DNA from: Acidobacteriota bacterium
Lineage (GTDB): Bacteria > Acidobacteriota > Thermoanaerobaculia > Multivoradales > JAGPDF01
Length of the DNA: 40,632 nucleotides
NCBI GenBank assembly: GCA_012521815.1
Contig: JAAYLR010000200.1
Coordinates: forward strand, 1-40,632
Reading direction: 5' to 3'
The notes beneath the pieces were generated by a model. That model saw only the letters and a list, made by a program, of their open reading frames with translations, made no database searches and was not told where the DNA came from. Positions 36,864 to 40,632 of the stretch are shown here, piece after piece. Every line of letters begins with the position of its first letter. The stretch's first letter is position 1. A program made the position numbers and the translations under genes.

Positions 36864-37484
36864 ATGAGAAGGCTGGCTATCCTCGGACTCGGCATCCTGC
36901 TGCTCGGCGCGACGGTTGCGACCGTCGCCTCGGCCCAGAGCACGAAGCCGCGCATCGCGGTGCTCGAGTTCAAGAACAAGGCGGACAACCAGTGGTGGTA
37001 CCACGGTGGTGCGGCAGCGATGCAGGACGTCTTCGTCACCGAGCTGGTCAAGAGCGGCAAGTTCCGCGTCATCGACCGCGAACAGCTGGCCGCTCTGATG
37101 CAGGAGAAGAACCTCTCGCTCGCCGGCGACATCGACCCGGCCACCGCCATCAAGGCCGGCAAACTGCTCGGCTGTCAGTACTTCCTCACCGGCGCGGTGA
37201 CCGAGTACGGGATGGAAGGGGCGGACGTCAATACGCCAGGGTTTCGCGGGCTCCCCAGCGTGTCGGTGCGCAAGAAGAAGTTCACCGCAGCCGCCAACGC
37301 CCGCATCATCGACACCACGACGGGCGAGATCGTCTGGGCCGACGAGGGTCGCGCCGAAGAGGGAACGGCCAACGTGAGAGTCGGCGGGGCCGGCGGCGGC
37401 GTGGACGACCAGCGAATGTTCGACAAGGTGATGAAGCCGATCATCCAGCAGCTGGTCGCCAGCATCAAGAACGCCGACATCTGA
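36864..37484 (+). CDS. CsgG-family exported protein
   Basis: A 206-residue protein with signal peptide (LAILGLGILLLGATVATVASA, cleaved near AQS). The mature part has the CsgG-type alpha/beta core: RIAVLEFKNKADNQWWYHGG, MQDVFVTELVKSGKFRVIDREQLAALMQEKNL, AIKAGKLLGCQYFLTGAVTEY and ANARIIDTTTGEIVWADEGRA. CsgG of E. coli forms the curli secretion pore, but most homologues, including those with no Cys at the signal cleavage site as here, are periplasmic or envelope proteins of unknown role. ATG 36864 follows GGAGGTAGGAG. It is convergent with the pseudokinase-TonB gene. Confidence 0.88.
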   Translation: MRRLAILGLGILLLGATVATVASAQSTKPRIAVLEFKNKADNQWWYHGGAAAMQDVFVTELVKSGKFRVIDREQLAALMQEKNLSLAGDIDPATAIKAGKLLGCQYFLTGAVTEYGMEGADVNTPGFRGLPSVSVRKKKFTAAANARIIDTTTGEIVWADEGRAEEGTANVRVGGAGGGVDDQRMFDKVMKPIIQQLVASIKNADI

Positions 37485-37602: not shown

Positions 37603-39510
37603 TCAGCGCAGCTTGAAGACCACCTTCATATCGGTCCACATCCTGCCCGGGACGCCATCCTTCGTCGCCGGTGCGAAGACGGTCGCCTTGGCCGCAGCGA
37701 TCGCTGCCTCGTCGAACCCGAGACCGGCCTTCTCCGGCACCGTCGCATCGATCACCTGGCCGCGCTCGTCGACCAGCACGCGCACCGTCACCACGGCCTC
37801 GCGACTCATCCGCTTGGCCGCCGGCGGATAGACGGCCTGTGCAGAACGGGTCACCCGGGGCGCCACGACTCCCGGACCGGCGGTCAGGATCCCGCCACCG
37901 CCACGCGCTGGCGCCGCGGGGGCCGGGGTGGGTGCCACGACCGGCGCGGCGGCCGTGGGCGCCGGGGTCGGGGCGGCCGTGGGCGCCGGGGCCGGGGTTG
38001 CAGCCGCTGCCGCCGCCGGGGTCACCGGGGTGACCGGGGTCGGGGTGACGGCCGGCGGCGCAGCCGGCTCCACCGGGGCCGGAGCCGCGGGGGTCACCGC
38101 CGCGACCGGCGCGGGGGCCGAAGCCGGGGCGCTGGGAGCTGCCGCGGCAGCGCGGGCCTTCTGCGCCTCCTCCAGTTGCCGCTGGAGCGCCTTGATCTCG
38201 TCGGCCTGCTTGTCCGAGGCCGCCTTGAGACCCTCCTGCATCTGGATGCGCTGCTGCTCGAGCGCCTGATCGAGCAGCTCCTGGATCTGCTCCGGAGTCA
38301 TCCCCGGAGCCGCCGGTTCCGCCGCCGCGGGAGCCTCCGGCGGCGGCTTGGTGCCACCCCGCCCGAGGAGGAAGAAGCCACCGAGGGCGAGGAGCACCAC
38401 GGCGGCCGCGACCCCGCCGATCAGACCGATCGGGAGCGGCTTCTTCGCCGCCCCCCCCGCGGGAAGGCCGTACTCCTCCTCGAGCGACCGCGCCGGCGCC
38501 GGCGGCGCCGCCGCCGGGACGGCGGGTGCCGGCGTGGGAGCGGCGACCGGCCGCAGCTCCTCGGGCGTGACCCGGATCGTCTTCTCCGATTCGATCTCCT
38601 GGCTCTCCCGGTCGATCTCCTCGCGGAAGAGCGAATGCATGTAGAAGGCGAGGTTGAAGGTGGTCGGGTTGTAGTGGCCGTCGGCCATCAGGCCCGAGAT
38701 CGCCTTGTGCCAGGCGGCCGCGTCGGGGAGGCGCTGATCGCGCGGCGCCAGGCTCTGCTGGAGGAGGTCGGCGAGCGGCGGCGGCAGCGGCGTACCCTCC
38801 ACCGCCAGCGTCGCCTGGCCGAGCAGAGCGCCCGCCCCCTGCGGACCGGCGGCGAACCGCTCGCCGGTGAGCAGCTCGTAGAGCAGCACCCCGAGGCTGT
38901 AAACGTCGTCGGCCTTGTGCGGCGGCTGTCCGGCGAGCGTCTCGGGCGGCAGGTAGCGGGCGAAAGCGTCCTTGAGGAGGGGATGTCCCGCCGAGCTCCG
39001 CAGGCCCCCCGCCACCTCGAAGCCGAGCAGCCGCGTCTCTCCCTCGTTGGAGACCATGATCAGGTGCGGCACGAGGAAGCCGTGCAGCACCCGCCCGCTC
39101 TGGGTCCGGGTCTCGTAGGCCACCGCGAGCCCCATCGCGGTGCGCTCGGCGATCAGCAGCCCGTGATCGAAGGAGATCGGACTGTTCCGTTTGCGCGCCT
39201 GATCGATCAGGGCTCCGAGATGGCGGCCGGAGATGTAGTCGTAGGCGACGAACGGCACCCGGCCGACCTGACCGAGATCGACGCAGAGCCCCAGGTTCGG
39301 GCTGCGCAGCGCCTGCGCGAGCGGCCCCTGTGCCTCGAGGTGGTCGGCGAGACGGCCGCCGTCGACTCCCTGGCCGTTGAAGACGCGCAGCAGCAGGACC
39401 CGCTCGAGCCCGCTCTTGCCCACCTTGCCAGCCCGGAAGGTCTCCCCGAGCGCATCTTCCCCGAGCTTCTTCAGCAACAGATAGCTGCCGAACTGCTCCC
39501 TCGTGTTCAT
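37603..39510 (-). CDS. pseudokinase - transmembrane - coiled coil - TonB C-terminal fusion protein
   Basis: A 635-residue membrane protein. Residues 1-275 have a Ser/Thr-kinase fold: FGSYLLLKKLGEDALGETF (Gly-loop region), RYLPPETLAG (APE) and ADDVYSLGVLLYELLTGERF. Catalytic residues are gone: the VAIK Lys is Arg 42, HRD reads HGF (143-145), the DLKPxN segment is degenerate, and DFG reads GFE (163-165), so it should not phosphorylate. A single membrane segment (about 359-383, PIGLIGGVAAAVVLLALGGFFLL) follows. A coiled coil (405-455), an Ala/Pro linker (456-535) and a TonB C-terminal domain (545-635, VYPPAAKRMSREAVVTVRVLVDERG, ATKDGVPGRMWTDMKVVFKL) would lie in the periplasm. ATG 39510 follows GGAGGAGAGG. 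The architecture is unusual. Confidence 0.85.
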   Translation of the reverse strand: MNTREQFGSYLLLKKLGEDALGETFRAGKVGKSGLERVLLLRVFNGQGVDGGRLADHLEAQGPLAQALRSPNLGLCVDLGQVGRVPFVAYDYISGRHLGALIDQARKRNSPISFDHGLLIAERTAMGLAVAYETRTQSGRVLHGFLVPHLIMVSNEGETRLLGFEVAGGLRSSAGHPLLKDAFARYLPPETLAGQPPHKADDVYSLGVLLYELLTGERFAAGPQGAGALLGQATLAVEGTPLPPPLADLLQQSLAPRDQRLPDAAAWHKAISGLMADGHYNPTTFNLAFYMHSLFREEIDRESQEIESEKTIRVTPEELRPVAAPTPAPAVPAAAPPAPARSLEEEYGLPAGGAAKKPLPIGLIGGVAAAVVLLALGGFFLLGRGGTKPPPEAPAAAEPAAPGMTPEQIQELLDQALEQQRIQMQEGLKAASDKQADEIKALQRQLEEAQKARAAAAAPSAPASAPAPVAAVTPAAPAPVEPAAPPAVTPTPVTPVTPAAAAAATPAPAPTAAPTPAPTAAAPVVAPTPAPAAPARGGGGILTAGPGVVAPRVTRSAQAVYPPAAKRMSREAVVTVRVLVDERGQVIDATVPEKAGLGFDEAAIAAAKATVFAPATKDGVPGRMWTDMKVVFKLR

Positions 39511-39614: not shown

Positions 39615-40632
39615 CTATCTCACACCGCCCCGGGCGGCGAGCGCCTCTTCCCGCTCCCGGCGCCACCGCTCCCGCCAGTACTGCCGCTGCCAGCGCTCCA
39701 CCGCCCGGGAGTGCTCGGCGAGCGTGCGGGAGAAGACGTGGGAGCCGTCGTTCCGGCTCACGAAATAGAGGGCGTCGGTCGCCGCCGGCCGCATCGCCGC
39801 CTGCAGGCTCCCGAGCCCCGGCGAGCAGATCGGGGTCGGAGGGAGGCCCGGGCGCCGGTAGGTGTTGTACGGGGAGTCTTCGGTCAGGTGATGGCGCTTC
39901 AGGTTCCCGTCCCAGGTGCCGGCGAGCTTCAGGCCGTAGATGATCGTCGGATCGGCGCCGAGCGTCATCCCGATCCGCAGCCGGTTGGCGTAGACGCCGG
40001 CGATGAGCGGCCGCTCCTCGTCGAGCCGGGCCTCCTTCTCCACGAGGCTCGCCAGCGTCACGAGGGTGCGCAGCGGCGGGGCCTCGGCCGGCGCCAGGGG
40101 TTCGACGTCCGCGGCGAAACGGCGGCGGAAGTTGCCGACCATCTCCGCGGCCACCGCCTCGGCTCCCGGAGCACGGGGAAAGTGGTAGGTATCGGGGAAG
40201 AGATACCCCTCGAGGTTCGTGGCCTCCGGGTCGAGATCGGCCACCAGCCCGGGCCGGGAGAAGGCCGCGAGGAGCTCTTCGCTCCCGGCGACCCCGGCCG
40301 TCGCGAGCGCCTCGGCGGTCTCGGTGAGGGTGAGCCCTTCGACCACCGTGACCCGGTGGAGGGCGACCTCCCCGCGCTGCAGCTTGGCGATGATGTCGAG
40401 AGGCGCGGCCGGCCCGGCGAAGCGGTACTCCCCCGCATGAAGGGGAGGATCGCCGAGACGGTGGACCAGCCAGAGCCGCGCCCAGCGGGTCTCGGGCAGC
40501 ACGCCGGCGGCGGCGAGTCGCGAAAGGATCGCGCTCCCGCTCGATCCCGGTGGGATCGTGACGAAGATCTCCTCGCCCGCGAACCCCTGATACGGGGTCG
40601 TGAGGAGACGCCAGCCGCGCCAGAAGGCGTAC
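39615..40632 (-). CDS. mltG: endolytic transglycosylase MltG, partial
   Basis: The C-terminal 338 residues of MltG; the 5' end, with the membrane anchor, is beyond the right edge. MltG cuts nascent peptidoglycan strands. FVTIPPGSSGSAILSRLAAAGVL begins the LysM-like part. VVEGLTLTETAEALA, TNLEGYLFPDTYHFPR, LASLVEKEARLDEERPLIAGVYANRL (with the catalytic Glu), GADPTIIYGL and SPYNTYRRPGLPPTPICSPG are the family signatures. It ends in a basic tail. A TAG stop at 39615 is followed within a few bases by the promoter of the pseudokinase-TonB gene. Confidence 0.94.
   Translation of the reverse strand, partial: YAFWRGWRLLTTPYQGFAGEEIFVTIPPGSSGSAILSRLAAAGVLPETRWARLWLVHRLGDPPLHAGEYRFAGPAAPLDIIAKLQRGEVALHRVTVVEGLTLTETAEALATAGVAGSEELLAAFSRPGLVADLDPEATNLEGYLFPDTYHFPRAPGAEAVAAEMVGNFRRRFAADVEPLAPAEAPPLRTLVTLASLVEKEARLDEERPLIAGVYANRLRIGMTLGADPTIIYGLKLAGTWDGNLKRHHLTEDSPYNTYRRPGLPPTPICSPGLGSLQAAMRPAATDALYFVSRNDGSHVFSRTLAEHSRAVERWQRQYWRERWRREREEALAARGGVR

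Follow-up and report, generated by a model that had tools for sequence, protein, structure and literature searches.

A gene of an Acidobacteriota bacterium encodes a 635-residue protein in which a kinase domain devoid of its catalytic residues is joined through a single membrane helix and a long, flexible arm to a TonB C-terminal domain (TonB_C), a type of domain that in known proteins holds on to the outer membrane. This architecture is real, the loss of the catalytic residues is fixed, the pseudokinase is under purifying selection and the protein is conserved at the level of the phylum. It belongs to an ancient, strongly conserved and seemingly undescribed family of Acidobacteriota proteins that probably connects signalling in the cytoplasm with the cell envelope. 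With about even chances, it serves as a trans-envelope scaffold or sensor without catalytic activity, laid out like GltG/GltJ or TolA and probably lacking proton-motor coupling of its own. The gene and its neighbours occupy the following positions in the window, the whole stretch of 40,632 nucleotides that was analysed:

37603..39510, minus strand: whole gene for pseudokinase, membrane helix and TonB_C, 635 aa (translation; 12 homologues of full or partial length)
38677..39510, minus strand: pseudokinase domain, residues 1-278 (Pfam Pkinase, PDB profile search, Foldseek, dN/dS)
39385..39387, minus strand: Arg42 replacing the ATP-binding beta3 Lys (alignment with active paralogues, which have VAIK there)
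39076..39084, minus strand: His-Gly-Phe (143-145) replacing HRD (catalytic Asp missing from every aligned orthologue)
39016..39024, minus strand: Gly-Phe-Glu (163-165) replacing DFG (metal-binding Asp missing from aligned orthologues)
38581..38676, minus strand: post-kinase motif, residues 279-310 (HYNPTTFNLAFYMHSLFREEIDRESQEIESEK) (top column conservation in the protein; kept in other classes)
38362..38436, minus strand: single membrane helix, residues 359-383, without His (hydropathy 2.45)
38143..38298, minus strand: predicted periplasmic coiled-coil helix, residues 405-456 (AlphaFold2 helix 406-456, pLDDT ~60-86)
37900..38142, minus strand: Ala/Pro-rich spacer, residues 457-537 (composition; low conservation, 0.44)
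37609..37839, minus strand: TonB C-terminal domain, residues 558-634 (PF03544, TIGR01352, pLDDT ~85-95)
39615..40502, minus strand: mltG (YceG), upstream neighbour, whose 5' end may exceed the contig end (PF02618, 252 bits)
36864..37484, plus strand: convergent CsgG/LpoB-like gene (PF03783, 95.6 bits)

The reading frame starts with an ATG at 39510, ends with a stop codon at 37603-37605 on the minus strand and contains no internal stop codons, and a GGAGGAG ribosome-binding site lies just 5' of the ATG. The pseudokinase and the conserved motif are followed by a linker, the membrane helix, the coiled coil, the Ala/Pro spacer up to residue 537 and TonB_C. Residues 558-634 match TonB_C in Pfam (PF03544, 54.6 bits against a cut-off of 24.6), the NCBIfam model TIGR01352 tonB_Cterm scores 48.4 bits against a cut-off of 27.1, and AlphaFold2 models this part well, with a pLDDT of ~85-95. 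The domain reading of the earlier note, from the kinase fold to TonB_C, is thus borne out by Pfam, NCBIfam, hydropathy, composition and AlphaFold2, the predicted structure of the C-terminus included, and so is its placing of the gene between mltG and a convergent CsgG-family gene (252 and 95.6 bits). The membrane helix and TonB_C are 164 residues apart in the window protein. Across orthologues this spacer measures 115-281 residues, mostly ~165, and together with a helix of 51 residues it could span the periplasm. Because the protein is conserved in more than 100 genomes, chance or error is ruled out.

The assignment of the N-terminal part to the kinase fold is based mainly on sequence, because the structural models of this part are weak. 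Pfam Pkinase matches residues 88-221 of the window protein with 34.0 bits against a cut-off of 31.7, and a profile of 13 family members has matches to 959 PDB chains (E<=1e-3), headed by PknB-type kinases (1.4e-17). The two AlphaFold2 models were built with 12-13 sequences, and their confidence is poor over the kinase part. With both models, all Foldseek matches listed are kinases. VIA-align, which covers residues 1-282 and leaves TonB_C outside the comparison, superposes the low-confidence model on 3f69_A with Z 9.3 and an rmsd of 9.7 over 179 residues, and on 2fum_A with Z 9.2 and an rmsd of 2.0 over 88 residues of the C-lobe.

The window protein has LLLR for VAIK, HGF for HRD and GFE for DFG, and the catalytic-loop Asn is lost as well. 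The claim that all catalytic residues are replaced and APE is kept therefore stands for Arg42, HGF and GFE but not for APE, in place of which the protein has PPE. Every orthologue aligned lacks the Asp of both HRD and DFG. At the HRD position, orthologues of the class carry HG[F/C/M/L/A/Y], and those of other classes likewise lack the catalytic Asp; H143 and G144 are invariant among 40 diverse class members. The beta3 position is Arg in most orthologues and Lys in a few. Structural kinase residues are kept, namely Glu190 of the APE-like motif, Asp202 and Arg260. A sequence error or frameshift behind the lost motifs is ruled out, since the orthologues share the loss. The kinase domain of the window protein is, as judged from its motifs, catalytically dead, a pseudokinase by descent and not by error. 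Three further proteins (L064, L066 and L095) are classed as pseudokinases by the HGF aligned at the HRD position. A quick tree was built from 49 kinase domains; four rows have long branches and details are unsure, but all eleven active kinases are set apart by a branch with an SH-aLRT of 99; L104, labelled 'other' in this tree, is inactive too by its motifs. Because one strongly supported branch separates active from inactive kinases, a single ancient inactivation at the origin of the pseudokinases fits best.

The family is widespread. Twelve relatives in public genomes carry titles that are nearly all Acidobacteriota or Thermoanaerobaculia, in agreement with the phylum suggested in the earlier note, and more than 60 further loci share the loss of catalytic residues. 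Searching with a profile built from diverse members detects the pseudokinase (E<=1e-60) in 115 of 148 sampled genomes and 62 of 70 genera of the class, and additional members occur in other families of the phylum among 297 genomes spread over it, so that the combination of Pkinase and TonB_C recurs in Acidobacteriota in this and further classes. Twenty loci read from the phylum-wide set all lack the HRD and DFG Asp, and nearly all of them have TonB_C and the motif SPTTFNxAFxM. Since the gene comes close to being core in one class and also extends to several others, it must have a role that the majority of these bacteria retain. The ~20 near-complete genomes of genus g5 (family f3; e.g. G041, G013, G021) lack both this protein and the active kinase-TonB_C protein described below, but they retain mltG and several TonB_C proteins. 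One class genome has tandem pseudokinase-TonB_C genes behind mltG (L065, 1528-3642 and 3636-5603). In the literature covered, which leaves out most subscription papers, no kinase or pseudokinase fused to TonB_C was found described; this is no proof of novelty.

Compared with the nearest relative (L007), dN/dS is 0.147 for the pseudokinase, indicating purifying selection, and 0.138 for the post-kinase motif. No other stretch of the protein is as conserved as this motif (TTFNLAFxMHxLFRxEI), which has a mean column conservation of 0.87, compared with 0.71-0.76 for the kinase lobes, 0.65 for TonB_C and 0.44 for the spacer. Selection therefore appears to act mostly on the pseudokinase and the post-kinase motif, and we infer that the motif is a docking site. 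In the proposed mechanism, a docking surface facing the cytoplasm would be made up of the dead kinase and the conserved motif C-terminal to it. A single helix would pass through the inner membrane, the periplasm would be bridged by the coiled coil with the Pro/Ala arm, and TonB_C would use strand addition to hold a ligand in the outer membrane or periplasm. The ligand or the state of the envelope would then be relayed to a partner in the cytoplasm, or signals would run in the opposite direction. We infer the orientation, ligand, partner, signalling direction and lack of motor coupling in this scheme. Sensing or scaffolding in the cytosol that is passed on to the envelope had been suggested before; the layout and the fixed 'pseudo' state fit that suggestion, although as to function it is still a best guess.

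The genome encodes other proteins of the same layout. One of them (L027, contig C220, 3357-6131, minus strand) combines a receiver-like domain, an intact Ser/Thr kinase, a membrane helix and TonB_C. Its kinase retains VAIK, HRDVSPQN and DFG and scores 136.8 bits, and the receiver-like domain lacks the usual phospho-acceptor Asp in the members read. This active form is present in 104 of the 148 class genomes. Another (L028, contig C28, 3842-5140, plus strand) has a GGDEF diguanylate cyclase domain, a membrane helix, a coiled coil and TonB_C. L033 (contig C201, 708-1538, minus strand) is a short protein whose start resembles a signal sequence; its TonB_C is weak (32.7 bits), and it has no obvious arm. 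A GDLV-like preamble precedes TonB_C in 34 of 75 pseudokinase proteins and 4 of 6 active ones; being present in many but not all, it was dropped as a shared mark of the two. The pseudokinase may pair with the active kinase-TonB_C protein at the membrane and switch it, like kinase-pseudokinase pairs elsewhere. No other kinase of the genome is as close to the pseudokinase as the active protein (89 bits versus 56 for the next). The two forms occur together in 96 class genomes, whereas 19 have only the pseudokinase, 8 only the active form and 25 neither. However, kinship confounds these counts, most of the genomes with neither belonging to genus g5; either protein stands alone in some lineages (e.g. 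f7 genera), which rejects a strict pairing, and the two genes lie on different contigs. Such an allosteric partnership is unlikely. The same low probability applies to a broader idea, in which the TonB_C arms of Acidobacteriota would be envelope-reading receptors, with the pseudokinase, the receiver-like domain plus active kinase, or GGDEF reading the state or tension of the outer membrane or cell wall.

The earlier reading of the TonB domain had implied a drive by ExbB/ExbD. TonB and TolA bind their motors through an SHLS motif in the membrane helix (PMC12204202). His, as in the SHLS-type motif, is found in 0 of 74 orthologous membrane helices, and the TonB and TolA helices of the same genome do contain a His. 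ExbB-ExbD-ExbD-TonB genes, the last a classical tonB, lie on contig C220, TolR-TolA-TolB-Pal genes lie elsewhere in the genome, and no exbB/exbD linkage exists at the pseudokinase-TonB_C locus. Motor genes thus co-occur with the protein in the genome, but on another contig and beside the classical tonB, and the ExbB/ExbD-driven reading finds little support. Replacement of TolA or TonB by the pseudokinase-TonB_C protein is rejected as well, the genome having both. The true TonB_C, the motor genes in the genome and a Pro-rich, helical spacer about as long as in transducers would fit an energy transducer of the Ton/Tol type in which the pseudokinase gates the coupling to ExbB/ExbD or TolQ/TolR. 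Moreover, GltG binds AglR, a TolQ-like motor protein, despite a cytosolic domain ahead of its helix (PMC3169522), so that a missing SHLS motif is insufficient to exclude motor use. Nevertheless, the lack of His in all 74 helices, the locus without exbB/exbD, and the classical TonB and TolA that already serve both motors make motor coupling unlikely, and we regard the gated transducer as quite improbable.

The gene neighbourhood bears on a second role in the envelope. Of the 58 class loci with enough upstream sequence for the count, 51 have mltG as the immediate upstream neighbour in the same orientation, and this adjacency persists over sequence divergence down to ~31-35% identity. The CsgG/LpoB-like gene is a conserved neighbour in part of the class. 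In other classes, where neighbours were identified by reading translations, mltG is not beside the gene; groES/groEL, ATP synthase genes, genes for FHA and TPR proteins or a transaminase gene occur there instead. In family f17 (L070, L071) the pseudokinase gene directly follows ruvX, and mltG, usually between both, is missing there. In family f22 (L149, L150) FHA-domain-like and TPR-like proteins, read from translations, are encoded upstream; FHA is the type of the cytosolic domain of GltG. The envelope link drawn from these neighbours thus holds as synteny in one class but not in other classes, nor in g5, where mltG occurs without the gene. A phylum-wide mltG operon is rejected. Pairing with mltG is a long-standing feature of local reach that may be functional, not a rule across the phylum. 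The protein might regulate or localise MltG and thereby control the release of glycan strands during envelope growth, as the 51 of 58 same-strand pairs, kept down to ~31-35% identity, would allow; against this stand the different neighbours outside the class (groES/groEL, ATP synthase, FHA-TPR genes), the ruvX that f17 genomes carry in that place and the mltG that g5 keeps without the protein. Because the link is class-specific and mltG persists without the protein, control of envelope growth is weakly supported, and such a role is quite improbable. A decayed kinase or annotation artefact without function has practically no probability: the catalytic residues are gone and Pkinase is barely above the Pfam cut-off, but this is refuted by the conservation of an identical state across the phylum, together with a dN/dS of 0.147, the lack of stop codons and the invariant structural residues.

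If the scaffold or sensor reading is true, the TonB_C arm, known from import and gliding motors, would also serve as an input or output of eukaryote-like kinase signalling, and bacterial pseudokinases, mostly of unknown function, would gain a clear place in the cell. This reading can be tested directly through the outer-membrane ligand of the TonB_C arm and the cytoplasmic partner of the dead kinase.

Among known pseudokinases, MviN resembles the window protein in being membrane-linked and in its setting of envelope growth; unlike the window protein, it is fused to a flippase, has FhaA as its partner and lacks TonB_C. MviN (ActPs3) of Mycobacterium tuberculosis is one of the families listed in a review of bacterial pseudokinases, which makes no mention of TonB or Acidobacteria (PMC12599244). 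The bacterial Ser/Thr pseudokinases GLW, ActPs1-3, CP1, DYD and DLHK likewise have a kinase fold with degraded motifs, and in the GLW family the kinase is also followed by a membrane helix (PMC12599244). However, GLW pseudokinases have GLW for HRD and LLLL/W at beta3 (PMC12599244), whereas the family described here has HG[FCMLAY] and mostly LLR; HGF and LLLR place the window protein outside GLW.

TonB and TolA share the TonB_C fold and a long Pro-rich or helical periplasmic arm with the window protein. Their SHLS-bearing helix is N-terminal, and they generally lack a cytoplasmic domain (PMC12204202; PMC8262864), whereas a 300-residue pseudokinase precedes a His-free helix in the window protein. 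The connector layout of GltG and GltJ, with a cytosolic domain, an internal membrane helix, a periplasmic helix and TonB_C, is found in the window protein. GltJ (AgmX) has a single membrane helix, a periplasmic helical part and a TonB_C motif (PMC5349195), but its cytosolic part is different and it is described only in the myxobacterial gliding complex. GltG (PglI), which acts in the gliding of Myxococcus xanthus, consists of ~640 residues with a cytosolic FHA domain, a membrane helix, a periplasmic region and a C-terminal TonB_C (PMC3169522). It differs in having FHA instead of a pseudokinase, in being encoded in glt clusters and in binding AglR; a Pfam scan gives no FHA match in the window protein, and no glt-like genes are recognised beside its gene at this locus. 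In domain order, GltG of Myxococcus, with FHA, membrane helix and TonB_C, is the closest known design to the pseudokinase-TonB_C protein.
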